A stretch of 37,864 bases of DNA from a virus. The position numbers and the translations under genes were made by a program. The stretch is from positions 1 to 37,864 of the IMG/VR virus record IMGVR_UViG_3300046507_000221; one strand, 5' to 3'. The notes under the pieces were generated by a model, which saw only the letters and a program-made list of their open reading frames with translations, ran no database searches and had not been told where the DNA came from. Positions 19,869 through 35,999 of the stretch are shown here, in pieces; the first letter of the stretch is position 1; each line of letters opens with the position of its first letter.

Positions 19869-19897
19869 TTGACAAACGCAATTATCATCGCTATAAT
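19869..19897 (+). promoter_or_regulatory. Repeated early promoter, copy P1
   Basis: TTGACA, 17-bp spacer AACGCAATTATCATCGC, TATAAT. Best sigma70 match of five copies. It drives the 63-aa gene at 19929 and probably the genes beyond. An AATTGGAGA ribosome site follows. Confidence 0.85.
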
Positions 19898-19928
19898 GAT
19901 CGCGTTGTTCAATTGGAGAAACACGACG

Positions 19929-20120
19929 ATGGCAGCGAAGAAAGCTAAGTATGCGAACGTTGACGAAGCCGCCGCATTCCTCAAAAGCGAAGGCTTTGAA
20001 TTCGTCAAGATGAACGGGCGTTGGGAAGTCGATATGTCTAACGACGGCGGCGGCAAGGAATGCGCCTTGATCGAACCGCACGGGGATGGCGTCAAAATCG
20101 TTGATTGGCATCAGGATTAA
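19929..20120 (+). CDS. Small protein of unknown function (63 aa)
   Basis: First gene after promoter P1; start chosen at 19929 for GGAGA 10 nt upstream, since an in-frame TTG at 19869 is the promoter itself. The sequence begins MAAKKAKYANVDEAAAFLKSEGF, with a short helix then GRWEVDMSNDGGGKECALIEPHG-DGVKIVDW, an alternating beta pattern. No known domain recognised. Lysine-rich N-terminus could bind nucleic acid (inference). Confidence 0.65.
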   Translation: MAAKKAKYANVDEAAAFLKSEGFEFVKMNGRWEVDMSNDGGGKECALIEPHGDGVKIVDWHQD

Positions 20121-20125
20121 TCCAG

Positions 20126-20422
20126 ATGGTCGGTAACTCACCATCTGGCGGTTATCGTCGCAAGAATTTCCAAGATGATGCTTATGATCATCTTGGGCCG
20201 CGTGTTCGTCGCGCGCTGCAAGAGGCTGTGACCGCATGGGACGCGGATTGGTGTTTGCGCATGGTGCGCAAACACGGTGCTGATTACGTGATCAAGGCTA
20301 TTCACGAAGGCGACAAACAACAGGCTTCGCGAACCATTCAAATGAAGCCCGGTCAAAAGGGCTTTCCGTCATCGTATGCGGATAAGTCGTGCCGCGTGCC
20401 GATATTGCGAGCTAACTGGTAA
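20126..20422 (+). CDS. Small helical protein, DUF6525-like (98 aa)
   Basis: Begins 5 nt after the previous stop, AGGA upstream; stop abuts the next ATG (TAAATG). The central LGPRVRRALQEAVTAWDADWCLRMVRKHGADYVIKAIHEGD resembles DUF6525 proteins of alphaproteobacteria and their phages (a short helical protein, alRaal.ea...wda). Function unknown; lies between the AAA+ gene and the large DUF7192-like gene, so it may belong to the same system. Confidence 0.6.
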   Translation: MVGNSPSGGYRRKNFQDDAYDHLGPRVRRALQEAVTAWDADWCLRMVRKHGADYVIKAIHEGDKQQASRTIQMKPGQKGFPSSYADKSCRVPILRANW

Positions 20423-21586
20423 ATGACCGTAACCGTAACCGGCAAAACCTTTGAATTGCGCGACCGCCTGAAATCATTGGGCGGTCGCTGGAATGCTGAA
20501 AGCAAGGGTTGGGAATTTCACTCGCTATCGCCCGCGCATCGTCGCGAATTGATGGCGCATGTTGGTGTAGTCATCGGCGAGAAATCAACCGAGACACCGA
20601 AGCGCATTGATTTTGATACAGATGATGACACCACCGATTTAGGCGACTTCGGTAAACGGCATTCGCAATCACGATCACCCGGCCGAACCAATATGCATGG
20701 TGATGATCCGTCTTGGTTCAACTATTTCCGCGATCAAAACCCGATCGGCTTTTTCGGCTATTCCAGCCTTTCGGCGATGGTCAAATACATTGAAGGATTG
20801 CCCGAACGCGACCGCAACGGGCGCGGTTGGTTGCGCGGCGATGAAAGATGGTCAGGAACCGATTGCATGGGCGATGCAATCGAGATCGCGCGCAAAGGTT
20901 GGGCTGATGGCGTTGAACTCGCGCAAGAAATACACGAAACGCTGACCGGTCAACACGCCAAGGAACGCAGGCGAAAACATACCGTCGCGGGCGGATCGGT
21001 GAACGTCGGGCGGATGCTTGCAGGTAACCCCGCGCATATGATCGCGCGTCCCAAGCGCGAGGGAAAGAAAGTCGTCACGTTCTTTGTTGAGTGTTTCATG
21101 TCTGCCGGGATCGATGCCCAAAACGCAATCATTCGCGCGGCATTGATCGGAGCGATTGCGGACGTTCTCGAAATGAATGGGTATTCCTGCGAAATCGTTT
21201 CGATCAGCACCGCTGTAACCGTTCGTCGTAATGATCCGGCCTATCAAGTCGCAACCACGTTGAAAGCCGCTGGCGAAACGCTGAATTTGGATGACGTTGT
21301 TTTCGCGCTAGGTCATCCCGCTTATTTCCGTCGCCTTGTGTTCGGCTGCGTCGGAAGTGACGACGCTTTGCGAGACGAATGGCGTACGATGGGTTTGCCG
21401 TCGCGAGCATTCGACGCCGAACACCCAACGCGCGCAACCGAGTTATTCGTTGATAAGATCGCGCTCAATCATCAACGCTTGATTGATGACAACGCACCGC
21501 TGATCACTCGCGCAATGCAGATTTGGGATTTGATCGTCAAGGGCGAATTGCCCGTAATGCTTAACCGGGAGACTATCGACGCATGA
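20423..21586 (+). CDS. Large protein of DUF7192-like type, candidate partner of the AAA+ ATPase
   Basis: 387 residues. N-terminal about 1-48 (GKTFELRDRLKSLGGRWNAESKGWEF) is a DUF5710-like module. Residues 97-165 (WFNYFRDQNPIGFFGYSSL, KYIEGLPE, W.G...C.GDAIEIARKGWADG) match the DUF7192-type opening. Residues about 187-370 form an alpha/beta region with VVTFFVECFMSAGIDAQNAIIRAALIGAIADVLEMNGY, which looks like a degenerate VWA-like fold but without a clear DxSxS metal site. MoxR-like ATPases commonly act with VWA proteins, so a pair with the gene at 18778 is a reasonable inference. Start ATG abuts the preceding TAA. Confidence 0.7.
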   Translation: MTVTVTGKTFELRDRLKSLGGRWNAESKGWEFHSLSPAHRRELMAHVGVVIGEKSTETPKRIDFDTDDDTTDLGDFGKRHSQSRSPGRTNMHGDDPSWFNYFRDQNPIGFFGYSSLSAMVKYIEGLPERDRNGRGWLRGDERWSGTDCMGDAIEIARKGWADGVELAQEIHETLTGQHAKERRRKHTVAGGSVNVGRMLAGNPAHMIARPKREGKKVVTFFVECFMSAGIDAQNAIIRAALIGAIADVLEMNGYSCEIVSISTAVTVRRNDPAYQVATTLKAAGETLNLDDVVFALGHPAYFRRLVFGCVGSDDALRDEWRTMGLPSRAFDAEHPTRATELFVDKIALNHQRLIDDNAPLITRAMQIWDLIVKGELPVMLNRETIDA

Positions 21587-21840
21587 TCATCGCAATGATT
21601 AAAGGCGCAACGCGCGTGTGCGGCAAAGCGCAGGGCTATCTAGGCTTGCCGGTTCGCGATATGATCATCATCGATAAGGCGAGCGGACATCATGCGCCAG
21701 CAATGGAAACCGCTTGGACGCCTTCACCTGATGAACTTGACCGGCTGAATAAAGGTGCGAACGTCATCGTTAGAATTTTAGGCGAGGTTCCGCCACCGAT
21801 GATGTTGACCGTAGACACGGAACTACCGAAAGACGATTGA
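21583..21840 (+). CDS. Small protein of unknown function (85 aa)
   Basis: ATGA overlap with the preceding gene, so coupled to it. Alpha/beta composition (KGATRVCGKAQGYLGLPVRDMIIID, TPSPDELDRLNKGANVIVRILG). The LDRLNKGANVIVRILG end is shared by small phage proteins of unknown role. Ends 6 nt before the inverted repeat upstream of the excisionase-like gene. Confidence 0.65.
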   Translation: MIIAMIKGATRVCGKAQGYLGLPVRDMIIIDKASGHHAPAMETAWTPSPDELDRLNKGANVIVRILGEVPPPMMLTVDTELPKDD

Positions 21841-21846
21841 CCGGAA

Positions 21847-21864
21847 ACTTACCAGCCGGTAAGT
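21847..21864. promoter_or_regulatory. Inverted repeat, possible operator of the excisionase-integrase pair
   Basis: Perfect 7-bp inverted repeat ACTTACC / GGTAAGT with a 4-nt centre (AGCC), ending 7 nt before the ATG of the HTH gene. The placement over the ribosome-binding region fits a repressor/autoregulator site or a translation-blocking hairpin. No T tract, so not a terminator. Confidence 0.5.
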
Positions 21865-21871
21865 TGGCGGA

Positions 21872-22111
21872 ATGAATTTCCAACCCGCCGCTTTCAATCT
21901 CGCCGATGCAGCCGCCTATTGTGCGTTGTCTGTTCCGACGTTTGAGAAGGTTTGCCCGGTCAAGCCCATTGCGTTCACGGATAGCACGCGTGGAAACAGA
22001 TACTTACGTGTACGGCTTGACGAATGGCTTTTGACGTTAGACCCTAATGGCGCGCAGCCGGTCGCGCGCCGATTTGGGGAACGGTTAAGTGGTCGAAGTG
22101 AAGTTGCGTGA
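21872..22111 (+). CDS. Excisionase/AlpA-like helix-turn-helix protein
   Basis: 79 residues: FNLADAAAYCALSVPTFEKVCPVKPIAF, then GNRYLRVRLDEWLLTLD. This is the winged-helix pattern (n..eAAaylglS..tf...v.pv..i....g.r.yr...ld.wl) of small excisionase-type or AlpA-type DNA-binding proteins. Directly upstream of and overlapping the integrase gene, as expected for a directionality factor; a transcriptional regulator is the alternative. No strong Shine-Dalgarno (GGCGG). Confidence 0.75.
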   Translation: MNFQPAAFNLADAAAYCALSVPTFEKVCPVKPIAFTDSTRGNRYLRVRLDEWLLTLDPNGAQPVARRFGERLSGRSEVA

Positions 22112-23252
22112 CTTAAACATCACCCACGCTCGCGGCAAATATTACGTTTATATTCGCTCAACCGGTGCACCACTGGTCAAGGGTTTCGAAGGCGATAAGG
22201 TCGCACTTTTGAAACATCTGGAAGGCCCGCAATTCCTTCAAGTCTACAATCGCCCTCGCCTCGCCAAGCGTGCAACCGCAAATCTCGGAATTGAAACTCT
22301 AGGCGGTTTCATCAATTGGTTTACAAACGGCGATATCGACCGAACGCTTAACGAGCGCAAAGACCCGAACAGATTTGGTTCTGATCCGAACGGTTATCCG
22401 AAGTGGCGAAACAAATTCGCCGCGTCAACTCGCGATGATTATCTAAAATGTTTCGAGTACGTCCGTTCTGAATTCGATATTCTATTGAAGGATATCGGCA
22501 CTTCCGATTTATACGATGTTCGCGACCGTTGCGCGAATGAGAAGAAAACGCGTTTCGCCGACAAGCTGATAACGTCGTTGTCATCGCTATTCAGACAAGC
22601 GGTTAAACGTGATCGAAAGACAGGGATGAAGTTTAATCCATGTTCAGGCATGGATAAAATCCACCAAGCTGATCCGAATTCTAATCGCGAATGGCGTCCG
22701 GAAGAATGGGAGTATGTTCGCGAGCATGCACCGATGGAAATGCTAATCCCGTTCATGCTCGCACGGTTTGCCGGTTTGCGTGGTCAAACGATTATCACCG
22801 TCAATCGAAAAATGGTCGAAGACCATCCGCTAACTGGTAAAGCTATTCGCTATGTTCCGCATAAGAACGCGGCAGTTGTAAAACAAGTTCTGTTGCCGAT
22901 GCTACCTGAACTGCAAGAATTTCTAGCAACATTGAAGGTTGAGCGCGCGGACGGCTTGATCGCTCACCGCGATAGCGGAAGCAAATGGGGGACGCCGAAC
23001 TACCTTCAAAAATACGTGAGCGCGTGGCTTAGAGAACAGGAACGGGCCGGGCATATCGGCGCGGGGACGACTTTACACGGCTTGCGCGTGACCTACGCCG
23101 CATGGTGGAAGCGTCACGGCGGCGCTACTGACCGCGAAGTAGCTGACCTATTGGGCGACGATAGCGAGGCGATGGGCGCGCACTACACGCGGCACGTTGA
23201 CGCGGAAGTGAGCATCAATCGATCTTTCGAACGCATTAAGAATAAGCCGTGA
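22089..23252 (+). CDS. Tyrosine recombinase (phage integrase)
   Basis: 387 residues. Arm-binding N-terminal part (1-75), core-binding SAM-like part (about 70-175) and catalytic domain (200-375). Catalytic residues visible: Arg231 in ARFAGLRGQT, Lys probably in the VPHKNAA segment (about 259), His330 and Arg333 in LHGLR, and the nucleophile Tyr366 in GAHYTRH; box II second His is replaced in LLGDDSEAMG. It catalyses integration and excision with the upstream HTH protein as likely directionality factor. Start is a GTG at 22089, overlapping the preceding gene; a downstream GTG at 22098 is an alternative. The att-like repeats follow. Confidence 0.9.
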   Translation: MVEVKLRDLNITHARGKYYVYIRSTGAPLVKGFEGDKVALLKHLEGPQFLQVYNRPRLAKRATANLGIETLGGFINWFTNGDIDRTLNERKDPNRFGSDPNGYPKWRNKFAASTRDDYLKCFEYVRSEFDILLKDIGTSDLYDVRDRCANEKKTRFADKLITSLSSLFRQAVKRDRKTGMKFNPCSGMDKIHQADPNSNREWRPEEWEYVREHAPMEMLIPFMLARFAGLRGQTIITVNRKMVEDHPLTGKAIRYVPHKNAAVVKQVLLPMLPELQEFLATLKVERADGLIAHRDSGSKWGTPNYLQKYVSAWLREQERAGHIGAGTTLHGLRVTYAAWWKRHGGATDREVADLLGDDSEAMGAHYTRHVDAEVSINRSFERIKNKP

Positions 23253-23259
23253 ACGCCAC

Positions 23260-23464
23260 TTTGCAAAACACATAGGTTTTTCTGCAAAACAGCGCGGCAG
23301 GCGACATCAAAACTAAAACAAAATCAATAAGATGCCGGGAAACGAAACATACTTGGAAACGGCCGCTAATTCCTGTTGATACACTGAGATCATTGAGGTT
23401 TTCCGCAAAACAGCGCGGCCGAACCTAATCGAAACGAATGGAACAAAACGAGATTTGCAAAACA
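23260..23464. repeat. Cluster of GCAAAACA repeats after the integrase, candidate attP/arm sites
   Basis: Four copies of GCAAAACA in 205 bp: TTTGCAAAACA at 23260-23270; the long repeat at 23274-23298; its near-identical copy at 23396-23419; TTTGCAAAACA at 23454-23464. The two long copies share AGGTTTT, then GCAAAACAGCGCGGC, and differ by one inserted T and one substitution. All lie in the same orientation immediately after the integrase stop, which is where arm-type sites and the attP core are usual. No sequence inside can be proved to be the core. Confidence 0.55.
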
Positions 23465-23913
23465 TGAGCGAGCTAGAAGACTTGATTGCATTCATCGCAA
23501 GAGCGACGGTCGGGCATAATCCGAGTGCTAAACAAAAGAACGTCATTCAAAGAATAAGAACGCTGCTCCTCTCATTATATAGAGACAGGGCGGATAATGA
23601 TTTTGATCGCGCGCAATCTCAAAAGCCTTCCGTCCGGAACATTCGAGATCGTCAGCTAAGAGAAAAGTACGGAATTACCCTAGACGATTGGGAAAAGATG
23701 TTCCTCGCCCAATCCAGCGCATGCGCAATTTGCAAATGCACAAATCCCGGTCGTCAATGGCACACGGATCATTGTCACCGAACCGGCAACGTCAGGGGTA
23801 TTTTGTGCCACGGCTGCAACACCGGTCTTGGGTATTTTTGCGATAGTTCCGCCGCGCTTCAATCGGCTGTGACATATCTCGATATTGCAGCGAAAAATGC
23901 AATCATCGCTTGA
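23464..23913 (+). CDS. Endonuclease VII-type HNH protein
   Basis: 149 residues. After a helical N-terminus, KYGITLDDWEKMF leads into ACAIC (Cys87, Cys90), then WHTDHCHRTG-NVRGILCHGCNTGLGYF: the HNH core DHCH (103-106 region) with Cys115/Cys118 and Asn119. This is the recombination endonuclease VII/T4 gp49-like phage family, a zinc-bound DNA endonuclease for branched DNA or homing. Start ATG at 23464 (TTG at 23455 rejected), within the last att-like repeat. Its stop codon lies inside promoter P2. Role: DNA processing, host nicking or selfish element; undecided. Confidence 0.8.
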   Translation: MSELEDLIAFIARATVGHNPSAKQKNVIQRIRTLLLSLYRDRADNDFDRAQSQKPSVRNIRDRQLREKYGITLDDWEKMFLAQSSACAICKCTNPGRQWHTDHCHRTGNVRGILCHGCNTGLGYFCDSSAALQSAVTYLDIAAKNAIIA

Positions 23914-23938
23914 CCATCGCAATTTTCATCGCTATAAT
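23910..23938 (+). promoter_or_regulatory. Repeated early promoter, copy P2
   Basis: TTGACC, spacer ATCGCAATTTTCATCGC, TATAAT (perfect -10). Overlaps the stop codon of the HNH gene and drives the gene at 23967. An extra CATCGC lies just upstream (23904-23909). Confidence 0.85.
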
Positions 23939-23966
23939 CATTGCATCAATAATAGGAGGATAGACC

Positions 23967-24287
23967 ATGGCTAATCAGCAAGGCGAAATGTACGCGGCTT
24001 ACAAAGCCGAAACCGAAAAGAACAACACCAAGCCGGAAATCATCAGCGGTTTTGAAGCGGTTGCCGAATTCATGCGGAACAACAAGTTCCCGGAAAAGCC
24101 GTACAGCCATGCCCCTAAGTTTTGGGGCGGGCCGGGCAAGGTGTACGATCTGGCGGATGGTCGCGTTGCCGAACTATCGCAAACGAATAGCGCGGTTGGA
24201 ACACCGTTGCTTGCCATCTTTGCCAACCAAACCGATCATCTGAACTACCGAAAAGCGATGCCACTAAATACCTATCTGTACGGCTAA
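23967..24287 (+). CDS. Unknown protein (106 aa) under P2, ending at a strong terminator
   Basis: Own promoter (P2), near-ideal TAGGAGGA ribosome site and own terminator make this a well-expressed single-gene unit. Starts MANQQGEMYAAYKAETEKNN; contains FEAVAEFMRNNKFPEKPYSHAPKFWGGPG and a beta-rich end VYDLADGRVAEL...PLLAIFANQTDHLNYRKAMPLNTY. No motif recognised, soluble. The cassette layout fits an early host-takeover or lysogenic-expression gene (inference). Confidence 0.7.
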   Translation: MANQQGEMYAAYKAETEKNNTKPEIISGFEAVAEFMRNNKFPEKPYSHAPKFWGGPGKVYDLADGRVAELSQTNSAVGTPLLAIFANQTDHLNYRKAMPLNTYLYG

Positions 24288-24300
24288 CCCGCTCAATCAA

Positions 24301-24322
24301 CCCCGCTTCGGCGGGGTTTTTT
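24301..24322 (+). terminator. Strong intrinsic terminator
   Basis: CCCCGC-TTCG-GCGGGG hairpin (UUCG tetraloop) followed by TTTTTT. Ends the P2 transcript before promoter P3. Confidence 0.92.
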
Positions 24323-24338
24323 ATTTGTATATTACCTG

Positions 24339-24367
24339 TTGACCATCGCAATTTTCACCGCTATAAC
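24339..24367 (+). promoter_or_regulatory. Repeated early promoter, copy P3
   Basis: TTGACC, spacer ATCGCAATTTTCACCGC, TATAAC. One spacer change (T to C) from P2. Drives the zinc-binding gene at 24394, with AATTGGAGA as the ribosome site, as for P1. Confidence 0.8.
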
Positions 24368-24393
24368 CAACGCAACGAATTGGAGATGGCGAC

Positions 24394-25236
24394 ATGACCA
24401 CCGCAGCACACGTTTTCGAACTTTCCCATAACGGCAAAGCGCCCTTCCGTTGCGTTGGCGTGGCTAGCATCCCCTCGCCTTCGTTGGCTGAACAGAACCC
24501 GACCGCGTACAACAACGCGCTCGCCATGCTGCCGAAGGGCATCGGCTGCGGTTCCTGCGCTCATTGCGGGACGGCGATCATGCACAATTACATCATCGTT
24601 TCGTCCGAAGGTAATAAGTTCGTTGTCGGTTCCGAATGCGTCATGAAAACCGGTGATGCGGGCTTGATCGCCACCGTCAAGGCGGAACGTTCCCGCATGG
24701 CTGCGGAAAAGCGCGAAGTTCGCCGCAACACAAACCGCGCCGAACGCGAAGCATCTTGGAAAGCCGAACGCGAAGCCAACGCAAAGCATTTCGCGATGAT
24801 CTACGCTGATTTGATCACCAAGGCACAGCCGCATATGCAAATCGCGTTCATCAAAGACGTGATCGAAGGTGGCTTATCGGGCCGGTTCATTTCCGACAAG
24901 GCTATCAGTGCGGTTGCCCGCGTAATCGAAAGCATCGAACAGCGCGCTATCTGGAAAGCCAATTCCCGCCACACCGGCACCGTTGGCAAGCGTCAAACGT
25001 TCAACGTGGTGGTTGACCGCATCGCCTCTTATGAGCGCCCGTCGTTCGCTGGTTACGGCTATGACCGCGTTTGGATCGTCACCATGCGCGACGAAGCCGG
25101 AAACGCGATCGTTAGCAAGTCAACCGCATTCTGCCCGGATCAGGGCGCAAACCTGACGATCAAGGCGACCGTCAAGGAACATTCGTCATATGATGGCGAA
25201 CAGCAGACAATCGTTCAGCGGATCAAGGTTGCTTGA
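24394..25236 (+). CDS. Zinc-binding phage protein, possible nucleic-acid-binding (280 aa)
   Basis: N-terminal zinc-ribbon-like motif CGSCAHCG (Cys52, 55, 58) with a further Cys82 in VVGSECVMKTG; the motif C..C..CGT.I......G..F.VGS.CV is a recurrent phage/plasmid type. A basic, Arg/Glu-rich coiled segment (about 95-130) follows. The C-terminal domain (TFNVVVDRIASYE, WIVTMRDEAGNAIV, TIKATVKEHSSYDGEQQTIVQRIKV) is beta-rich and OB-like. I infer DNA- or RNA-binding; it is not a recognised enzyme. First gene of a three-gene plus operon. Confidence 0.65.
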   Translation: MTTAAHVFELSHNGKAPFRCVGVASIPSPSLAEQNPTAYNNALAMLPKGIGCGSCAHCGTAIMHNYIIVSSEGNKFVVGSECVMKTGDAGLIATVKAERSRMAAEKREVRRNTNRAEREASWKAEREANAKHFAMIYADLITKAQPHMQIAFIKDVIEGGLSGRFISDKAISAVARVIESIEQRAIWKANSRHTGTVGKRQTFNVVVDRIASYERPSFAGYGYDRVWIVTMRDEAGNAIVSKSTAFCPDQGANLTIKATVKEHSSYDGEQQTIVQRIKVA

Positions 25237-25237
25237 T

Positions 25238-25516
25238 ATGAAACTAACTCAACCCCAAATCACGGCCCTGCAATTCCTCGCTAAAGGGCCATGGGTAGCG
25301 CCATGGTGGGGCGGGAAACCGCACATTACACGACCGAAGGAATTGCCTGCCGCAACACTTAGCAAGCTTGTAACGCTGCGCTATGTCAGGATTATGCACG
25401 TTGGGCGGTTCGATCCCGTCACAACGATCACCGAAGCCGGGTTGAAAGCTCTGAACGACACGATCACCGCAACCGCACAGAAGATATTGAAAGGTGCAAT
25501 CAACAATGGACTTTAG
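25238..25516 (+). CDS. Small winged-helix-like protein (92 aa)
   Basis: One base after the preceding stop. MKLTQPQITALQFLAKGPW, then AATLSKLVTLRYVRIMHVGRFDPVTTITEAGLKAL: an alternating helix-helix-wing pattern like small winged-helix regulators (T..Q...L..l......lt..G...L). It overlaps the next gene by 11 nt. Function by fold is only suggestive. Confidence 0.6.
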   Translation: MKLTQPQITALQFLAKGPWVAPWWGGKPHITRPKELPAATLSKLVTLRYVRIMHVGRFDPVTTITEAGLKALNDTITATAQKILKGAINNGL

Positions 25517-25718
25517 ACATCAAAACGTCGTTGCGCTGTTCGAAAGAGCAAAAGAAATCGTCATGTTGTCGAAAACTGAATTGGGTTATTCCGACATTGG
25601 CGACGTAATCGTAATGTTTCTGCGCGCCGAAATCTCATCCTTCGAAGCAATCGAAAAGATGAACAATTTGGCTATCGATTATGAACGCAAGCGATCGGCT
25701 GGAAAATTGTGGCGCTAA
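25506..25718 (+). CDS. Small unknown protein (70 aa), end of the plus-strand module
   Basis: Start ATG at 25506 with AAGGTG upstream; a GTG at 25494 is in frame. Helical (FERAKEIVMLSKTEL, EKMNNLAIDYERKRSAGKLW). The last four bases overlap the converging minor head gene, the two stop codons interlocking (25715-25718), so there is no room for a terminator between them. Confidence 0.6.
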   Translation: MDFRHQNVVALFERAKEIVMLSKTELGYSDIGDVIVMFLRAEISSFEAIEKMNNLAIDYERKRSAGKLWR

Positions 25719-26740
25719 TCGATATTCGCCAGCCAATCAATTTTCATTTTGGTTCGGCAGCGGCAGTTGATCGTTTCGGACGCATCAGCACCAAGCGAGC
25801 TATCACCCGGAAACATCAGCAATTGCCCTGATGGCGTCTTGAACGGTTCATCCAAACCAACGGTTTGACCGTTCATTTCCGCATGCGAATGTCTCACGCG
25901 GCTATCTCCCGCATCGTCCCATTCGCGTTTAACGTCCTTTTGTTTGACCGCGCCCATATCGGACGCTTGCAACAACGCTTCGTGCTGCGAACGATTGAGC
26001 GATTGAATTGTTTCGGTGCGCGAGATCGTTTCACCACGCAATTGCAACAAGCTGGATTTGTAACGAATAACCAGCTTGTCGATTGTTGCTTGATCCAACG
26101 GTTGACCGCTATCGATCGCCTTTCTAACGATGCCGTCAAACCGCTTATCGCGCCGCGCTCGCGTGAAATACCGTTCGTTCAACTCCGAAAGATCGCGACT
26201 TGCGTTCGCAACCCAACCTTCCTGTTGCTGCGTCAAGCCGATAATTCCGCCGACACGCTTCCCGGTGCGCGTATCAATGCGCCCGACAATATCAAGAGCG
26301 GTTGAACGCGGGTTATCGCCAGCCTCAAGACCGCGCGTAATGACGTTGCGGACGTTCACCCGCGCGTCTTCCTGAATTTGAACGATCAGCCGCGACGATT
26401 GCTCTTTCAACCACTGTTCGGCACGCGGGTTCGTCACGTCGAAACGGAACACCGCCCTGCCCGCGCCTGTGTTCAGCACCTTGGGGAAAGTTGATCCGAC
26501 CGCAACGCCGCCTTGCTCGAATACCGTTTGCAACGCTGCTGTGATCGGCCGCAGTGACGCATTGGACATGCCTAGCGTGGTGAACGCCTTTTCATAATCC
26601 TTCGCCTGAACGGCCTTGATCAAGTCTGTCAAAATCACCTGATCGTTGACGCCCTGAATTGCAGCCCGGAAGGCATCGCGAATTTTAGGCGCGAGTTTGT
26701 CAATTAGTTCATCAAGGATTTGTTCAAGCGATTTTGCCAT
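25715..26740 (-). CDS. Minor head protein (Mu gpF-like)
   Basis: 341 residues. Helical N-terminus (MAKSLEQILDELIDKLAPKIRDAF) and the C-terminal signature WDDAGDSRVRHSHAEMNGQTV, LDEPF, PSGQLLMFPGDSSLGADASETINCRC, diagnostic of the phage Mu gpF/SPP1 gp7 minor head family. A minor virion protein near the portal that aids DNA retention and ejection in related phages. Last gene of the head block; the ATG directly follows the stop of a 19-codon micro-ORF. Confidence 0.87.
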   Translation of the reverse strand: MAKSLEQILDELIDKLAPKIRDAFRAAIQGVNDQVILTDLIKAVQAKDYEKAFTTLGMSNASLRPITAALQTVFEQGGVAVGSTFPKVLNTGAGRAVFRFDVTNPRAEQWLKEQSSRLIVQIQEDARVNVRNVITRGLEAGDNPRSTALDIVGRIDTRTGKRVGGIIGLTQQQEGWVANASRDLSELNERYFTRARRDKRFDGIVRKAIDSGQPLDQATIDKLVIRYKSSLLQLRGETISRTETIQSLNRSQHEALLQASDMGAVKQKDVKREWDDAGDSRVRHSHAEMNGQTVGLDEPFKTPSGQLLMFPGDSSLGADASETINCRCRTKMKIDWLANID

Positions 26741-26800
26741 TTACTTGACTGCCATAAGAAAGGCTATGAAACAGATCAGGGCTATTAGTTCGTTTGACAT
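26741..26800 (-). CDS. Possible 19-aa membrane micro-protein
   Basis: Minus-strand ORF MSNELIALICFIAFLMAVK, exactly filling the gap between the head-connector gene (stop at 26805) and the minor head ATG (26740). One hydrophobic helix flanked by charge. GGGTGG lies 8-9 nt upstream of its ATG. Its stop is immediately followed by the minor head start (TAA-ATG), so it could act in translational coupling even if the peptide has no function. Very short; coding status uncertain. Confidence 0.4.
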   Translation of the reverse strand: MSNELIALICFIAFLMAVK

Positions 26801-26804
26801 CCTG

Positions 26805-27167: not shown

Positions 27168-27198
27168 ATGATTTCCCCCTTGTTCATCAACTTACCAC

Positions 27199-27227
27199 TT
27201 GACGATTTAGAAAACCATCACTAGAAA
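27199..27227 (+). promoter_or_regulatory. Possible promoter of the inserted cassette
   Basis: TTGACG, 17-bp spacer, TAGAAA (4 of 6 at -10). Lies 46 bp before the ATG at 27273. The spacer does not match the repeated P1-P5 type. Confidence 0.4.
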
Positions 27228-27272
27228 CACCGTATTGTGAGTTTTTAACCACCATCAGGGAAATCTATCAAA

Positions 27273-28773: not shown

Positions 28774-28797
28774 AGGTCTTTCCTTTCTCGCTAGAGG

Positions 28798-29244
28798 TTA
28801 CGCCGATTTGGTACTCTTTCGGCCCGCCTCAATCGATTGGGCCAAATGGTTCATTTGTTCTTTCATTTCCTCAAACCCGCGATGCACGTCAGCTTTTAGT
28901 TCGCTGTGCTTGTCGTTGAAGTCGCGCTTTAGTTCGTCCGTCGCCTTATAGAAGCTATCGCGCCGCATGTAGTTTTCGGCCATCTGCGCACGGAAATCGG
29001 AGAACCCTAATTGCAACGCATGGATGTTCGCTGTGATCGCTTCAAATCCAACTTTAGAGTTGGACGCGGCGTTAGCGTTCTTTTCGATGAACTCGAAACG
29101 CAACGCGTTATATTTTTCGGTAGTATCTTTTTCGAGCGCGCCAAATCTAGCTGTGAGTTTGCTTCCGCCGCCGAACAAGTCTTTGCCGAGCACGATTGCA
29201 AGGCTGATGCCGGTGAAAATCAAAGCGATCGTTGAACTGTCCAT
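28798..29244 (-). CDS. Membrane-anchored coiled-coil protein of unknown function (148 aa)
   Basis: One N-terminal membrane segment (STIALIFTGISLAIVLGKDLF) followed by a long charged coiled coil (LEKDTTEKYNALRFEFIEKNA..., MAENYMRRDSFYKATDELKRDFNDKHSELKADV). Start taken at 29244; ATG 29256 and GTG 29259 are in frame. Such layouts occur in phage proteins of uncertain role (lysis, superinfection exclusion or DNA entry). Its place right after the major capsid gene is unusual. Confidence 0.55.
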   Translation of the reverse strand: MDSSTIALIFTGISLAIVLGKDLFGGGSKLTARFGALEKDTTEKYNALRFEFIEKNANAASNSKVGFEAITANIHALQLGFSDFRAQMAENYMRRDSFYKATDELKRDFNDKHSELKADVHRGFEEMKEQMNHLAQSIEAGRKSTKSA

Positions 29245-29269
29245 GTGCCCGGTCATCACTGGATAGAAT

Positions 29270-29307
29270 TAAGACAAAGGGCCGGGCGGTACTTCCGCGC
29301 CCGGCCC
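29270..29307 (-). terminator. Intrinsic terminator after the major capsid gene
   Basis: Minus-strand stem GGGCCGGGCG / CGCCCGGCCC (10 bp, 9-nt loop), then TTTGTCTT. Sits right below the capsid stop and would keep capsid transcripts high relative to the genes after it. Confidence 0.75.
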
Positions 29308-29338
29308 CAATCGTCACGCAACCGCCAGTGGCAAGTTA

Positions 29339-30583
29339 CTAACCGAGAAGGCCCGCGATATGTTCCGGCTTGATCGCCTTCACACCCCATGCCTGCGCCA
29401 CTTCCGCGCGGATTTTCCGATAACCGGCATAGATGGCGACTTCGAACACCATGCCCGAACGCGGATCGGTGATGTTGATCCGGTCAATGGCAAGATCGCC
29501 TTCGTTCGGCAGCGCGGGCGCACGGGCCACAAGCCGCAAAGCGTTCGGCGAAAACGCGGTGCTGCCGACATGCGCGGCAACCACGGTGATGGCGGTTGCA
29601 GATGCCGGGATAGCCACGCGCAAGCCCGGTGCGTTCAGCGTGATCGAACCGCCCGCCGCCGCGCTGGCGAGACCACCACCGGGGGCAACCGTGTACACGT
29701 TGTTGTCACCCGCGAACTTGATCGAAGTACCGGCCGGAATGGTGCCGGAACCCGCCGCCGCGATCGGAATAACGGTGGTGCCCTTCGCGAAGCCCGCTGC
29801 GGTGGTGGTGGAGCCCGCTGCGGTGCCTGCGCCGATCAACGGGACGCCAGCGCTTTCCTTGATGTTCAGGCCGGCAAGGTTGATCAGGGTACCATCGGTC
29901 AGAACCATCTGCGTTCCGGCTTCGTTGGCCTTGGTCAGATTGGTCAACGAACGGAGATTTGCGCCCGCAGTGGTGTCAACAATGAGCGCACGGCCGGTCA
30001 GCGGTGCGCCGTTGTCGTCAAGGATTTTGCGAACCTGCGCAGCATCACCAACGGTGCTTGCAAACGGCGTGGTGCCAGCGGTACCCCACCAACGCGACAC
30101 GTTCGCGGCGGCTTCGGCGGCAAGATCAACTTCGATTGCGTTCGTCAGCGTGCGGAGTGCCTGCGCGAACAAATCCGCCTGCACCGACAGATAGCCCGAA
30201 CCGGTGTTCAACCCGCGCTGTTCTTCACCAGTGAAGCCGAACGGGACGGCCTTGGATTTGGTAATCGAGATCGTGCCGTTGCCGATGGTGTTATCCGGGG
30301 GTTCCGGAATGCTCATTGCGGGCGTGACATCCACCATGCCTTGCTGCGGCGTGACGAAATACACGATCGATTGACCGACCGCCGCGCGTTCTGCGGAAAC
30401 GTCGCGAACAACGGAGGGAATGTAGCCGACCAACTCACGCGAAACCACGTCAAGGCCCGCGTAAAGGTCGGGGATCAGCCGGGTTAGCGTGTTGGCGTAA
30501 GCCGCCATGTGAACGATGGCCGGGGCAGAGATCAGCGCCGACGCAGTGAGCAGCGACGGCTTAATAAGAGACTTCGCGCGCAT
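29339..30583 (-). CDS. Major capsid protein (P22 coat-like), with signal-peptide-like N-terminus
   Basis: 414 residues. NTLTRLIPDLYAGLDVVSRELVGYIPSVVRDVSAERAAVGQSIVYFV is the usual opening of P22-coat-like major capsid proteins; SKAVPFGFTGEEQRGL and the C-terminal DPRSGMVFEVAIYAGYRKIRAEVAQAWGVKAIKP agree. It lies after portal and scaffold. The start at 30583 has a strong TTAGGAG; a second ATG at 30508 has none, so a 30-residue leader (MRAKSLIKPS..., AAYA before Asn31) precedes the conserved part. The leader has a basic start, a hydrophobic stretch and AYA before Asn, like a Sec signal. Confidence 0.88.
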   Translation of the reverse strand: MRAKSLIKPSLLTASALISAPAIVHMAAYANTLTRLIPDLYAGLDVVSRELVGYIPSVVRDVSAERAAVGQSIVYFVTPQQGMVDVTPAMSIPEPPDNTIGNGTISITKSKAVPFGFTGEEQRGLNTGSGYLSVQADLFAQALRTLTNAIEVDLAAEAAANVSRWWGTAGTTPFASTVGDAAQVRKILDDNGAPLTGRALIVDTTAGANLRSLTNLTKANEAGTQMVLTDGTLINLAGLNIKESAGVPLIGAGTAAGSTTTAAGFAKGTTVIPIAAAGSGTIPAGTSIKFAGDNNVYTVAPGGGLASAAAGGSITLNAPGLRVAIPASATAITVVAAHVGSTAFSPNALRLVARAPALPNEGDLAIDRINITDPRSGMVFEVAIYAGYRKIRAEVAQAWGVKAIKPEHIAGLLG

Positions 30584-30682
30584 GTTGCAACGCTCCTAAT
30601 CAGATGATGTTTCGGGATTGGTCTAAGTGCATCATCCGATGCGAAACGCCGCATTGCCATCCGGTCTAGCGACTAGTTGCAA

Positions 30683-30711
30683 TCGGTAAACGTGTTCGCG
30701 TTTTTGGTCAA
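30683..30711 (-). promoter_or_regulatory. Possible promoter for the major capsid gene
   Basis: Minus strand TTGACC, 17-bp spacer, TACCGA, in the 246-bp gap between scaffold and capsid genes, with a terminator upstream. The -10 is weak; the -35 equals that of P2-P5, but the spacer does not. The rest of this gap holds the terminator and no gene. Confidence 0.35.
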
Positions 30712-30726
30712 GCGCTGATGATAGCT

Positions 30727-30777
30727 CAAAACGTAAAGGGCGCGCAGTTTCCCCCATCAAAAAGAACTGCGCGCCCT
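30727..30777 (-). terminator. Intrinsic terminator after the scaffold gene
   Basis: Minus-strand stem AGGGCGCGCAGTT / AACTGCGCGCCCT (13 bp, perfect) with a 15-nt loop, then TTACGTTTT. Separates scaffold from capsid transcription. Confidence 0.8.
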
Positions 30778-30829
30778 CCGATCAAGTCGAGTTGCCAGCG
30801 ACGAACAACCCGACGATGGTTGTTAGTGG

Positions 30830-31681
30830 TCAATCAACGATAGTCACGACACCCTTAGCCATTTCGCCCGCAATGCGCGCCTGTTCATGGCCCGGCATTT
30901 TGTCGTATTCAGCGCGAGCAACGGTGCGCCCGCCGCCGCGATTGCCACCGTTGCCGCCACCGCCGCCGCCGCTGTTGTTGTTCGCCTTCAAGATGACGGC
31001 TTTCTGCGGATGCTGATCCACAAGAATTTCCAGCGCTTCGGCCGCATCTGCAACTTGGCCGGTGTTCTTTTTGCTGAAAATACGGTTTCCGCTCTTGTCG
31101 AAAGCTTCAACTCGCCCATCATCCGCAACCTTCAAATTGTTGCGAAAGTAGGCTTGGAACATATCGAGCGGCATAGCGATGTTTTCGCGAACGAATTCCG
31201 ATTGACTGAAAACGTTGTCAATTCGCAAATCGTTCAGCGAAGATTTCAGCGTGCCGTTTTCCTTCGACAACGTTTCGATCTGTCCGCTGAATTGCGCCTT
31301 GATATCGTTCGTCACGCGATCGACTTCGCCCGCATCGATCAGCTTTTTCTTGTCAAGCTTATCGGTGATTTCGAGCGAGGCCCGCGCCTTGGCCGGATCG
31401 ATGCCCTCGAAAGTCGCAAGCGTTGCTTCGGCCTTTTCGGCGCGCTCGCGGTGCTGCTTCGCTTCGCCGTTGATGCGCGTGATGGCGTCGGAATTCAACG
31501 TTCCTTCGCTGCCGTCCGCGTTGATCCAAATCGGGTTGCCATCCTTCAACTGAATGGCCTTGCCGTCTTCGGTCAGCTTCCAACCGGCCTTACCGGGATC
31601 GAACACACGCAAATGAAGCCCGGCCATGTGAGCCGAAAGAAGCTTGGTTGCGATCGAATTGAAGATAACTGCTTTGGTCAT
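30830..31681 (-). CDS. Head scaffolding protein (DUF6651-like)
   Basis: 283 residues between portal and major capsid. Charged helical core (INGEAKQHRERAEKAEATLATFEGID, LDKKKLIDAGEVDRV, QIETLSKENGTLKSSL) then SEFVRENIAMPLDMFQAYFRNNLKVADDGRVEAFDKSGNRIFS, VADAAEALEILVDQHPQK. This matches the DUF6651 phage scaffolds (rERAEkAE, KKLIDAGEVe, ALe.LV..yP). The C-terminus has a Gly-rich linker (residues about 235-250). Start at 31681 for AAAGGAAAAG; ATG 31702 has none. Confidence 0.8.
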   Translation of the reverse strand: MTKAVIFNSIATKLLSAHMAGLHLRVFDPGKAGWKLTEDGKAIQLKDGNPIWINADGSEGTLNSDAITRINGEAKQHRERAEKAEATLATFEGIDPAKARASLEITDKLDKKKLIDAGEVDRVTNDIKAQFSGQIETLSKENGTLKSSLNDLRIDNVFSQSEFVRENIAMPLDMFQAYFRNNLKVADDGRVEAFDKSGNRIFSKKNTGQVADAAEALEILVDQHPQKAVILKANNNSGGGGGGNGGNRGGGRTVARAEYDKMPGHEQARIAGEMAKGVVTIVD

Positions 31682-31758
31682 TGTCGCTTTTCCTTTGGTC
31701 ATCCGACCATTGCGCCGCTTGCTATCCTGCTCACGACTGGTTGAGTTTACGCACGTAG

Positions 31759-31914
31759 TTACAAAACACCGGATCGCTGCACCTTCTTGATTTCCTCAAG
31801 AATGCGCTTGTTCAGGACATCGTTCGCGCCCTGCAATTTCAGAATGGTTGATTTCATTTCCGCGACATCGCGTTCAAGCGCTTCGATGCGGCGACGATTT
31901 TCAATGTCAGACAT
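31759..31914 (-). CDS. Small coiled-coil protein (51 aa)
   Basis: SDIENRRRIEALERDVAEMKSTILKLQGANDVLNKRILEEIKKV: a heptad-rich single helix. Overlaps the portal stop by 8 nt; longer frame to 32007 lies within the portal. No clear Shine-Dalgarno, so translation may be coupled to the portal gene. Possibly a scaffold helper. Function unknown. Confidence 0.5.
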   Translation of the reverse strand: MSDIENRRRIEALERDVAEMKSTILKLQGANDVLNKRILEEIKKVQRSGVL

Positions 31915-33622
31915 TTGCAGGGATTTGCTTTCGCGGTTGCGGTTTCTTCGGGTTGTTGGGCGGATTGCCGCCCGTATCGTCTGCGGCGTTCGGATCAACG
32001 GTGTCATCCGGGGTTTCTTCGAGCAACTGCCGTTTGTTCTCGTCTTCGTCCATATCCGGACGCACGGTATTGCGGCGCTTCAATTCGATGATGTAGTTTT
32101 CATGGCTCAAATCGCCGTTCGTGCGTGCGAACTGCAATGCGCTGTGATCGCTTGCTTGATCCGTGGTGAAATCGTCGAAGTCGTCATAGATATGTACGAC
32201 GGGTTCGAAATCAGTTGTCTTTAGGTTCATCCAAAGACAGGTAAGCTTCATTGCGTTTTCAAGCGCTTCCTTTAACCCAACTGCCCACCAACCAACGGCC
32301 GAACGCGTCTTGCCTGCCGCATACGCAGTTGTGACAACGGTAAGGTTGCCGGATTGCGCGGTCAGCGGTTGCCGCCCAAGATCGCGAACAACGTCCTGCG
32401 TTTCTTTAATGTCGTCCTTTAGCCAACGCAGGTTTTCAGCGGGCGGAACGACATAATCCCAATGCCCGATTTTGCCGGTTGCGTCCGGTTCGGAATACAA
32501 GACGACGTTCGGGCCAACAGCGAGTTGCAGCGGTTTTCCGTCCGGTCCTTTTTGCGGCTTAACACCGTTCGCCGCGAGCATGGGATATGCGGACATCAAC
32601 CGCGCGAATTTCAGCCCGCTTTCTTTCTGATACAACTCGATTTGCGCATCAGCGGCAGCAAGCATCGGTTTCGAGAAACGCCACGTGCGCCCGTTGCGGC
32701 GACCGGTCGTGAACGGCACAAGCGGAATAACGCCGATCGAAATTGGCGCGCTATCAACCATGATGAACGTTTTGGTTTTGCCGTCTGCTTCAAGTTTTTC
32801 TTCGAATAGCGCCATCATCACCGAACCGTCGTCGGTGCGCTCGAAAACGCGAATGTGGTTCGGCGTACCCGGTTCAAGGATGCGCAACCGAACAAGCGTT
32901 TCCTTGCTGTTGATGATCTTGGACGTAGCTTCAAGCACGTTGCGGCCAAGCACGTGTGACCAAAACGGACGAATGTTTTGGTCTTTCTGATCTTGCTGCG
33001 TACGAACACGCGACGGATCAACCTTCGGGTAATCGACGTAAATCCAATCGATCGCGGAATTGATGCCGTTGAAAAACGTCACCGCACCGAATGACGACAA
33101 GCAATTCCCTGCCCCGTCAACATCCTTCGCAAATTCTTCAATGTCGGGCGGCAGCGGAACCGGGTTGCCGGTTGCTTTGTCTTTGTCCTGTTGAAGTGTG
33201 ATTGGTTCCTCAAACGGTTTGCCCGCGAGCATTTCAACAACGTCACCATAGACGTTTGTCATTTCGGTTTGCAGCAAACGCGCGTTGTAATTGTCGGTCG
33301 GTTCGTTCGCAAATCGCGGCAAATACTTATCGCCGCGCCCTTTGACTGCGGTGTAACCTTCAATCAAATCGTCGGTCAAATCCCAATACGGAAGCATGTA
33401 AGCGCTATCTAAATTGCGAGCGCTCAAGTCTTCCTGCGTTGAACTGACCGTGACGATTTCCTGATTTGCTGCCCTTCGCGCCGCATCCATCAATGCGGAA
33501 ATCAAGCCGGTGTTAACGCGACCGGGAGGGGCAGGCGGAAACGAGTTGGGCAACGTACCGGGATCGAATGCGCGAATGCGAATTGCGTTCTTTGCGACGG
33601 TCGAAAGCATGTGATGGCGCAT
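31907..33622 (-). CDS. Portal protein
   Basis: 571 residues. DUF4055-like portal layout: ALMDAARRAANQE, YMLPYWDLTDDLIEG, TNVYGDVVEMLAGKPFEEP, then IPLVPFTTGRRNGRTWRFSKPMLAAADAQIELYQKESGLKFARLM, and DVVRDLGRQPLTAQSGNLTVVTTAYAAGKTRSAVGWWAVGLKEALENAM (the conserved helical stem/crown region). Pro/Asp-rich disordered tail. Follows the large terminase. Start at 33622 (ATG, AGTGGA upstream); GTG 33634 in frame. Forms the DNA gate. Confidence 0.88.
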   Translation of the reverse strand: MRHHMLSTVAKNAIRIRAFDPGTLPNSFPPAPPGRVNTGLISALMDAARRAANQEIVTVSSTQEDLSARNLDSAYMLPYWDLTDDLIEGYTAVKGRGDKYLPRFANEPTDNYNARLLQTEMTNVYGDVVEMLAGKPFEEPITLQQDKDKATGNPVPLPPDIEEFAKDVDGAGNCLSSFGAVTFFNGINSAIDWIYVDYPKVDPSRVRTQQDQKDQNIRPFWSHVLGRNVLEATSKIINSKETLVRLRILEPGTPNHIRVFERTDDGSVMMALFEEKLEADGKTKTFIMVDSAPISIGVIPLVPFTTGRRNGRTWRFSKPMLAAADAQIELYQKESGLKFARLMSAYPMLAANGVKPQKGPDGKPLQLAVGPNVVLYSEPDATGKIGHWDYVVPPAENLRWLKDDIKETQDVVRDLGRQPLTAQSGNLTVVTTAYAAGKTRSAVGWWAVGLKEALENAMKLTCLWMNLKTTDFEPVVHIYDDFDDFTTDQASDHSALQFARTNGDLSHENYIIELKRRNTVRPDMDEDENKRQLLEETPDDTVDPNAADDTGGNPPNNPKKPQPRKQIPANV

Positions 33623-33626
33623 GATA

Positions 33627-33803
33627 TTATCCACTGATGATTTCGACGTTGCCGCGAATAGTTCTGATCTTGTTGTGTTTCAAATACTCAACAACGCCTT
33701 GAACATCGTCCGCGATCGTTACGTTTCTGATCACTTGACCATCAACTTTCACGATCGGGTTTTCAAATCCGCGCGGCTTGATTTCGTCCCAAACAATCCG
33801 CAT
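33627..33803 (-). CDS. Small protein of unknown function (58 aa)
   Basis: Between terminase and portal. MRIVWDEIKPRGFENPIVKVDGQVIRNVTIADDVQGVVEYLKHNKIRTIRGNVEIIS: beta/alpha mixture, no motif. Starts 4 nt after the terminase stop with GGAATG upstream. A longer frame to 33848 is terminase overlap and rejected. Confidence 0.6.
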   Translation of the reverse strand: MRIVWDEIKPRGFENPIVKVDGQVIRNVTIADDVQGVVEYLKHNKIRTIRGNVEIISG

Positions 33804-33807
33804 CGCC

Positions 33808-35610
33808 CTACATTCCATACCGCCCAAGCATCGGCGCAAAATCGTCACGAACCGGAAAGTACATCATTACACCAGCGTCCGCTAGGTTCGGCGACTTTGT
33901 ACCATCAGGTTTTTTATCAACAACCATCCGAAGGGACGCGCCCGGCCCGTGTGTAGGCTGCGCTAGCTCTTTCATAAGCTGTTGCAACAGAGGCATGTTG
34001 CCATCTAGCGATATGAAATCATCGATCGGATAAAGCACACCTTCCGTGATGTTCTTCCACGTCTTATAGAAACGTGTTCGCAATGACCACCACGCTTGCG
34101 CTTTGAAGTTATGAAAAAAGTCTTTGTTGAGCGCGGATTGTTCATCATCGGGAATTAGACGCGCATACGGATCAACAACCGCTGCACCGGCATTCCAGCC
34201 AACGAACGGTAGGCTTTCAGGATCAATACCGCTCGCACGATCGCCAGAATTAAACACATCAACTAGGCGATTGTATTCCGACTTGACGGCAGAACCTACG
34301 CCGATTTCATCGTACTGAACTTTGATCAAGCGATGATTGCGGCAACTCGCAATGGCGCGACGCGTTGTAACGCCCGGATCGCGTTCGCCCCATTCTTCGA
34401 CATGACGCCAGATGATGCTTTGCCGCTTCGCAAACGCGTTGCGATCGATACCGCCGTCAGCAACGTCCAAGCCAGCAACCCAATTATCACCGATCAGGTA
34501 ATCAGGAATACCGGTGATGATTGAACCGTCTTTGAACTGCCAACGTATCTTTAGATGCGCGTCAACCGCCGCAGCAATCCATTCATATGGAATGATCGTA
34601 TTCGAAACCGCAGCACTATAGTTACGGTCAACCTCTTGCGCGAATAGATGCTGCAACCCTTCGCGTTCGGCCTTGGCTTTACGCTGTGCGTACCAAGCCG
34701 GGGTCTTCTCCGGATGATCCTTATAATCAAAGATGAAAACGCGCGTATGGCCCGGTTGCAGGTTGATCGCACCCGGACGCCAGTCAATGCCCGCCTCGCG
34801 CCGACGATGGAAGACGTTGCCCAAACCGTTGACGGAGGAAATATCAATCTGAACGTTGGTGTTATCCTCTAGCGCGGCCTGCACCATTTCCGGATGCGTA
34901 TAATGGGCGCTTTCGTCTTTGAAATAGACGCGCGTTCGCCCGCCTCGCCCGATGCTATCGCCAATTTCACCCGATATCACCGAACCGTTTTCCGGGTTGA
35001 TCATCTTCATAAACGTCAGATGATCGCGGACGCTTAGGCCCTTCGGTTTCCAAATGTCGGGCAAACGACGAACAAGCAACCGCATCTTTTCGAAGATGGA
35101 TGATGGATCGCCGATCTTATCGACCAACTCTTGCTTGCGACTTCCCCAACCAATCGAGTCATTCGGGATGAACAACCACGAATGAACGCTATAACCGCAA
35201 CACGCCCATGTTGCGCCCATGTCGCGGCACTTCTCAGTTAGACCGCTTTCAGCATCGCGCGTGCATTCTTGCAGGAAGTCAATGAACTCGGCTTGCCGCT
35301 TGAAGAAAACAAACGGTATCCACTTTGAACCTTTGCGACGCGGGTCATAAGTATCCATCCAATGCATGATGAATTCTTTGGGCCGCTTGCGATAATACGC
35401 CTTCGCACTCGCGAGCAATGCGGGGTTCGATCGCAACTTGTGCAATTGCTGCAAACGCCACGCATAAACAGCCTTGTAATTCGGGGGCCATTGTTCACGC
35501 GTCAAAAATTCCGGTTTCCACGGCTTAACGCTATCGGATAGCCCGAAAGCGCGCCAACCGATCACGTCCGCGTTTGGCGTGGAATAGCTCTTGACCATCG
35601 CAATATTCAT
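33808..35610 (-). CDS. terL: Terminase large subunit
   Basis: 600 residues. ATPase: Walker A-like EKCRDMGATW (126-135, the R.MGaTW variant), Walker B RVYFKDE (227-233). Nuclease: AGLDVADGG with Asp382, QYDEIGVG with Asp434, and NLADAG with Asp578, giving the RNaseH-like metal triad. It packages DNA into procapsids. First gene of the head block; no small terminase gene is recognisable next to it. Start at 35610 (ATG); ATG 35598 is in frame. Its first codons overlap the plus-strand promoter P4. Confidence 0.93.
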   Translation of the reverse strand: MNIAMVKSYSTPNADVIGWRAFGLSDSVKPWKPEFLTREQWPPNYKAVYAWRLQQLHKLRSNPALLASAKAYYRKRPKEFIMHWMDTYDPRRKGSKWIPFVFFKRQAEFIDFLQECTRDAESGLTEKCRDMGATWACCGYSVHSWLFIPNDSIGWGSRKQELVDKIGDPSSIFEKMRLLVRRLPDIWKPKGLSVRDHLTFMKMINPENGSVISGEIGDSIGRGGRTRVYFKDESAHYTHPEMVQAALEDNTNVQIDISSVNGLGNVFHRRREAGIDWRPGAINLQPGHTRVFIFDYKDHPEKTPAWYAQRKAKAEREGLQHLFAQEVDRNYSAAVSNTIIPYEWIAAAVDAHLKIRWQFKDGSIITGIPDYLIGDNWVAGLDVADGGIDRNAFAKRQSIIWRHVEEWGERDPGVTTRRAIASCRNHRLIKVQYDEIGVGSAVKSEYNRLVDVFNSGDRASGIDPESLPFVGWNAGAAVVDPYARLIPDDEQSALNKDFFHNFKAQAWWSLRTRFYKTWKNITEGVLYPIDDFISLDGNMPLLQQLMKELAQPTHGPGASLRMVVDKKPDGTKSPNLADAGVMMYFPVRDDFAPMLGRYGM

Positions 35611-35619
35611 CGCTATTCC
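35591..35619 (+). promoter_or_regulatory. Repeated early promoter, copy P4, over the terminase start
   Basis: TTGACC, spacer ATCGCAATATTCATCGC, TATTCC (weaker -10). It points away from the terminase gene and overlaps its start codon, so activity or occupancy here could affect both directions. Drives the gene at 35717 with about 90 nt of leader. Confidence 0.7.
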
Positions 35620-35716
35620 AAATACAACCTAGATGGTCCTAGTTCGGGTTTAGTGCTTCGTTTCCATCTTATCATACTTTCCGCCTACTTTCCACAAGGC
35701 CGGGGGATATCTCGCC

Positions 35717-35974
35717 ATGCGCAAGACAAGCAAATATTATGGTCTCGACTACTTTGTGCAGTGCTGTTGGCCCGGAAAGCACCATTTCGAGACCATCGCG
35801 GCGCTTGGCTTCAGTTCAGTCGCAATCGACTATGCCAAGGAAGTCTTGGCCCGACAGTGCGTGCCCGGCTTTCGTTACCGCGTGGTGCATCACAAAAACA
35901 ATGAACCGACGTGCGTTTGGCGTAGTTATGAAGACGCAAAAGAAAAATCGACCGAAGCAACAATCAGCGCTTGA
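35717..35974 (+). CDS. Small unknown protein (85 aa), first of the right early block
   Basis: MRKTSKYYGLDYFVQCCWPGKHHFETIAALGFSSVAIDYAKEVLARQ..., C-terminal YRVVHHKNNEPTCVWRSYEDAKEK. GGGGGA upstream. Has a His/Cys cluster but no recognised zinc motif. Under promoter P4; its stop overlaps promoter P5. Function unknown. Confidence 0.65.
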   Translation: MRKTSKYYGLDYFVQCCWPGKHHFETIAALGFSSVAIDYAKEVLARQCVPGFRYRVVHHKNNEPTCVWRSYEDAKEKSTEATISA

Positions 35975-35999
35975 CCATCGCAATTTTCATCGCTATCAA
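35971..35999 (+). promoter_or_regulatory. Repeated early promoter, copy P5
   Basis: TTGACC, spacer ATCGCAATTTTCATCGC (identical to P2), TATCAA. Overlaps the stop codon of the gene at 35717-35974; drives the gene at 36046. Confidence 0.75.

Follow-up and report, generated by a model that had tools for sequence, protein, structure and literature searches.

Putative operators in the spacers of five sigma70-like promoters of a Rigallicvirus-like phage fragment

Five near-identical sigma70-like promoters were found in the window, the 37,864-bp virus record analysed here, and their 17-bp spacers carry a direct repeat that may be the operator of a regulator, probably phage-encoded and most likely acting by repression or early shut-off. 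We rate this reading as a whole only marginally above even. The host sigma70 RNA polymerase would read the five sites as early promoters, and a sequence-specific DNA-binding protein, probably encoded by the phage, would occupy the repeat CATCGC-N6-CATCGC inside the spacer and the -10 flank. Once bound, the protein would jointly control most plus-strand non-structural units of the fragment, most likely by blocking RNA polymerase. Each lineage of this phage family has operator wording of its own, which is what joint divergence of operators and regulator would produce. From the sequences we infer that the promoters are probably active, that a binding protein probably exists and stems from the phage, and that it would repress rather than activate.

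An initial annotation had described the five sites with TTGACC (once TTGACA) and a 17-bp spacer, all of which was confirmed. The sites, the genes that follow them and the neighbouring terminase gene are as follows.

19869..19897, plus strand: copy 1, TTGACA AACGCAATTATCATCGC TATAAT, a 12/12 sigma70 match
19929..20120, plus strand: putative 63-aa gene downstream of copy 1
23910..23938, plus strand: copy 2, TTGACC ATCGCAATTTTCATCGC TATAAT
23967..24287, plus strand: putative 106-aa gene downstream of copy 2
24339..24367, plus strand: copy 3, TTGACC ATCGCAATTTTCACCGC TATAAC
24394..25236, plus strand: 280-aa phage protein gene (phrog_2319) downstream of copy 3
27199..27227, plus strand: weak sixth candidate, TTGACG ATTTAGAAAACCATCAC TAGAAA, 3 mismatches to the relaxed consensus
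33808..35610, minus strand: terminase large subunit gene, 65% identical to that of Rhizobium phage vB_RglS_P106B, likely start ATG at 35598
35591..35619, plus strand: copy 4, TTGACC ATCGCAATATTCATCGC TATTCC (poor -10)
35717..35974, plus strand: 85-aa gene downstream of copy 4, with a homologue in G012
35971..35999, plus strand: copy 5, TTGACC ATCGCAATTTTCATCGC TATCAA (poor -10)
36046..36255, plus strand: 69-aa gene downstream of copy 5

TTGAC and the 17-bp spacer are present at five of five sites, all oriented on the plus strand. The -10 had been characterized as TATAAT-like throughout, which holds for three sites (TATAAT twice, TATAAC once) but not for TATTCC at 35591 and TATCAA at 35971, leaving two of the five with a poor -10. 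Scores of 11–12 out of 12 against the sigma70 consensus were reached at two window sites. The -35/-10 pair of the window also resembles the Sinorhizobium meliloti promoter consensus CTTGAC-N17-CTATAT (PMC2873474).

The placement of the sites upstream of plus-strand genes was borne out, and these genes are non-structural. Copy 1 precedes the 19929 gene and the ensuing plus-strand run, and its counterpart at 7935 in the related contig G012 likewise lies directly past the CobS gene. Copy 3 comes after a terminator-like stem-loop (24299-24318) and precedes the 24394 gene; in G003 and P106B, too, a TTGAC element stands immediately upstream of the homologous gene. Copy 4 is divergent from the minus-strand terminase, its -35 and first CAT overlapping the likely terminase ATG, as is also the case in G012. 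It precedes the 35717 gene and has terminase-side counterparts in G012 (19723) and G016 (19897). Copy 5 precedes the 36046 gene and subsequent plus-strand genes. The candidate at 27199 is located 46 bp ahead of the ATG of a DUF7303-like gene (Pfam match below cut-off), and several DUF7303-like homologues have a TTGAC element upstream too. Between and around the first sites, the window encodes a CobS/porphyrin-biosynthesis type AAA ATPase (phrog_249) followed by a DUF7192 protein (18742-21586; homologues in P106B, G012 and G021), an excisionase-like protein (21872-22111), a tyrosine-recombinase-like protein (22089-23252; Pfam E 0.028, below cut-off) and a protein of the endonuclease VII family (23455-23913).

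A consensus scan of the window at ≤3 mismatches returned exactly five 29-bp sites, against 0.01 expected, and no further close copy. The expectation was derived from 100 dinucleotide-preserving shuffles of the window, none of which reached five, and a control scan of the window with the reversed pattern gave 0 matches. Mean pairwise identity among the five sites was 0.93 for the -35, 0.91 for the 17-bp spacer and 0.68 for the -10. The corresponding values for four flanking 30-bp stretches were 0.19–0.32, that is, background, and for the remaining 137 TTGAC sites of the window identity averaged 0.255 and peaked at 0.71 (9316 pairs). Copies 2 and 5, noted earlier as identical through -35 and spacer, are in fact identical across 26 bp, as far as the TAT of the -10. 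As flank identity is at background, the common block stops at the promoter edges, and together with the spacer identity this means that duplication of a whole region does not explain the likeness of the sites.

The element contains CATCGC-N6-CATCGC, a direct repeat with a period of 12 bp or about 1.14 helical turns. The initial annotation had the period right; its unit was given as ATCGC and the spacing as about one helical turn, and it did not follow the repeat beyond the -10, where it continues with 1–2 mismatches at three sites (CATTGC at 23910, CAACGC at 24339 and GATCGC at 19869). An additional upstream CATCGC, assigned to one copy, is indeed found at 23904-23909 before copy 2, but copy 1 has CATCGC/CACCGA upstream as well. 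Within the element, copy 1 deviates to AACGC in the first repeat and copy 3 to CACCGC in the second. In the CATCGC clade, which comprises the window, G012, G003/G009/G016 and c03691, lag 12 gave the highest self-similarity (0.56–0.58 across a 35-bp stretch). A profile of 33 non-redundant sites of this clade, with four contig groups given equal weight, was best conserved at TTGACCAT and CA.CGCTA. A at positions 7, 19 and 31, spaced 12 apart, occurred at frequencies of 1.00, 1.00 and 0.87, and positions 12 and 15 were among the most variable. Only this clade and its shifted branch, described below, show the 12-bp repeat clearly. In two helicase-only relatives, L078 and L074, the repeats of the TTGAC promoters are inverted instead of direct (TTGACGGGGCCGTCA and TTGACGGTACGGCCCGGCCGTA).

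Judging by its genes, the window is a truncated piece of a Rigallicvirus-like phage genome. Its terminase is that of vB_RglS_P106B at 65% identity, a 56-kb Rigallicvirus. A plus-strand gene at the left end (11-1279) matches 422 of the 683 residues of the P106B DNA polymerase and begins at the contig edge, which indicates that the contig is cut, and protein comparison showed that the helicase and primase regions of the relatives are absent from the window. Relatives were collected by pattern scans of viral contigs for the element and then by terminase and helicase; the longer element-bearing contigs and those found by terminase or helicase have structural genes in common with the window in protein comparison. 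The family has two cultured members, P106B and X2_24, which infect Rhizobium and Sinorhizobium. No paper on P106B promoters or Rigallicvirus was found in the literature searched. The relatives referred to here, with the wording of their promoter sets where a private set was recorded, are listed below (c-names are IMG/VR sample digits).

G003 (IMGVR_UViG_3300031214_000025), G009 (3300035698_002466) and G016 (3300025632_000092): TTGACCATCGCAACAACCATCGCTATAAC, identical in all three
c03691 (3300003691_000017): TTGACCATCGCGATTACCAACGCTAT
G018 (3300028361_000311): TTGACCATCTTGCAGACTAAGTGTAATGT
G021 (3300025896_000036): TTGACGACCACCGGGCGCTAATGTAGTGT
P106B: TTGACGCACAATTAGAAACGCGTTAAAAC
c12942 (3300012942_000065): TTGACGATTGCCGGGAATTATGCGACAAC
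c34175 (3300034175_000039), c12924 (3300012924_000011) and c37882 (3300037882_001233): branch with shifted element
G012 (3300048904_000056)
G019 (3300031398_000053)

Where gene order is conserved, relatives have this element too, at matching positions beside the terminase (G012, G016) and after CobS (G012). Other relatives, including some beyond those listed with a wording, have private sets in which TTGAC is constant and the spacer and -10 vary by lineage, the latter drifting from TATAAT to TAATGT, TAGTGT, TAAAAA and GACAAC. At homologous genes the promoter is kept and its wording switched by lineage, as observed for the 24394 gene of the window, its G003 homologue and P106B_72, and likewise for several DUF7303-like homologues. 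Most sites lie a short leader ahead of an ATG, and most sets in the relatives are on one strand. In c34175, c12924 and c37882 a near-identical ACCATCGCAAYGACCAT is found 3 bp further from the -35 in all copies of the branch, with the 17-bp promoter spacing unchanged. This is the pattern expected from separate constraints by polymerase and another protein, although it is not proof of them.

In the window and in 13 terminase relatives, sets of TTGAC sites with similar spacers near ORF starts exceeded controls with shuffled spacers (p≤0.007), and four helicase-only relatives also exceeded them with TTGAC sites preceding ORF starts. The controls were not exceeded in the stretches examined of several relatives, nor by any such set in I72, Susan and 9g, the nearest phages outside the family tested (partial records). 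X2_24 has a P106B-like set by eye that did not come up in the same test. Searching the relatives for repeats without the TTGAC anchor proved too noisy.

The earlier proposal that the spacer is constrained beyond the needs of sigma70 is supported by the edge-limited block, its occurrence in divergent phages, the lineage wording and the 3-bp offset, and the comparison of sequences thus supports selection on the spacer beyond what RNA polymerase appears to require. It also suggests that the early genes of each virus lineage may be under a control protein private to that lineage. A bolder and rather improbable reading is a family-wide, modular promoter specificity separate from sigma recognition, in which a factor reading the spacer controls the early genes and each lineage rewrote the spacers of its whole promoter set together with that factor, the -35 staying untouched. 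If the preferred reading holds, these phages would provide a natural promoter-operator series with an unchanging TTGAC and a regulator site that each lineage has rewritten. How operators and regulators diverge, and possibly how immunity groups form, would then be testable from sequence and a small reporter assay, and TTGAC-anchored similar spacers near ORF starts would be a signature for regulons in uncultivated phages.

An account without a second protein, in which copying within the genome keeps the promoters alike or the spacer belongs to a longer consensus that suits the host polymerase, appears unlikely. Some early promoters of phages are known to be conserved over a longer stretch, those of T4 being a strong set conserved beyond both hexamers, and in G003, G009 and G016 the downstream leader (TAGATTAACGAAACGCAAAC) is also common to the copies, as copying would leave. 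However, the tract shared in the window ends at the promoter edges, wording at matching loci varies by lineage and the 3-bp offset affects every copy of one branch. An optimum of the polymerase should furthermore not differ so between lineages unless their hosts differ; unlike T4, with one consensus and one host polymerase, the wording here varies by lineage around a constant TTGAC.

It also seems rather improbable that a phage activator or RNA-polymerase appropriation factor reads the spacer and helps to open poor -10s, which would make the sites middle rather than early promoters. Constancy of TTGAC across lineages in which the -10 drifts far is in its favour, and the poor -10s, which occur at two sites of the window and also in other lineages (TAATGT, TAGTGT, GACAAC), count against the preferred reading in that they could point to an activator. 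GcrA proteins act with sigma70 at promoters, and X2_24 encodes a GcrA-like cell-cycle regulator (L046:7740-8249), but such a protein was present in only one of the 15 records searched and was rejected as the common factor. At three of the five window sites both hexamers are close to consensus and 17 bp apart, which suits a promoter that needs to be blocked rather than helped. The spacer-binding activators of the MerR type act at over-long spacers of 19–20 bp with an inverted repeat; the window promoters have a 17-bp spacer and a direct repeat.

Recognition by a host transcription factor exploited by the phages, with no phage protein involved, is very unlikely. G003, G009 and G016 might share hosts, which would fit their identical wording, but related sites would be expected in a host regulon and a full-motif scan of genome_contigs (84,980 species) gave no match; the divergent operator wording would also require many host factors. 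A role of the repeats in DNA recombination, replication or packaging instead of transcription is hardly credible, as the copies, although similar in form to iterons or excisionase arm sites with their 12-bp direct repeats, are scattered, for the most part share one strand and lie a short leader ahead of a start codon, and are each equipped with a -35.

The preferred reading, a phage-encoded regulator bound to the spacer repeat, has its closest known analogue, as judged by comparison, in the operators and stoperators of Cluster A mycobacteriophages. Cluster A phages such as L5 and Bxb1, whose repressor is Rep, have many near-identical asymmetric sites mostly in one orientation relative to transcription, and heteroimmune members have distinct consensus sequences with repressors that prefer cognate sites (PMC6550527, PMC9283540). 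The window resembles them in its multiple near-identical sites of one orientation (five, plus strand) and in a consensus that differs between related phages. By this analogy a repressor or early shut-off is more likely than an activator. Unlike stoperators, which are mostly between genes, the sites found here are inside sigma70-like promoters, and in place of a single 13-bp site the window clade has a direct repeat with a 12-bp period, about 26 bp in all. The HTH proteins encountered here belong to other families (TetR_N-like and HTH_17), and repression at the window element would be putative. The terminase relatives in genome_contigs (84,980 species) amounted to two loci, both on MAG contigs, so for the family a lysogeny repressor is not what first suggests itself, although the window has tyrosine-recombinase-like and excisionase-like genes.

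Short repeats ahead of many small genes are shared with Cluster K mycobacteriophages, whose SAS/ESAS repeats are conserved upstream of many small genes and have unknown function (PMC3203893). The 13-bp SAS is adjacent to start codons and has been proposed for translation, whereas the window elements look like -35/-10 promoters. A 12-bp imperfect direct repeat in four copies has been described in non-coding sequence with predicted promoters upstream of gp54 in Sphingomonas phage vB_StuS_MMDA13 (PMC7472734). It occupies a single genome location and is not reported within a promoter set, unlike the dispersed sites of the window. Regulators of the 186 Apl, P2 Cox and AlpA type bind short direct repeats at phage promoters, and an HTH_17/AlpA-like gene is found beside the primase in relatives of the window phage.

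That gene lies directly before the primase in most relatives examined, and a small TetR_N-like protein (Pfam TetR_N E 1e-4 to 4e-3, below cut-off) adjoins the helicase in every tabulated relative covering the region. The AlphaFold model of the latter has a mean pLDDT of 91, and among the 50 of 691 Foldseek matches listed most were TetR-family structures (best E 0.033), a result that does not decide the matter. Both genes are candidate regulators and both loci fall outside the window, which is in part why no repressor is found in it. Covariation with operator type beyond helicase/primase similarity was low for the two proteins, with partial correlations of 0.14 (permutation p 0.18) and 0.12 (p 0.25) over 10 contigs. 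Neither tracks operator wording beyond phylogeny in these contigs, and both are no more than candidates; binding of the element by the HTH_17/AlpA-like product in the manner of Apl, Cox or AlpA would be conjectural. The HTH_17 helix of c37882 equals that of c34175 and a guess of a common operator held, but the two are close relatives overall and the match does not discriminate. For the excisionase-like (21872) and winged-helix-like (25190) proteins of the window, comparison with the relatives gave no homologue and Pfam gave no hit, which makes them poor candidates for reading a conserved element. The HTH_17 protein encoded ahead of the primase in G009 seems to be a fusion with an HNH-like domain (L050:10438-11010). 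An HNH-like gene near the left end of the window (1183-1812, plus strand), recognized by sequence reading only, is 29% identical to an HTH-HNH-like protein of G009.
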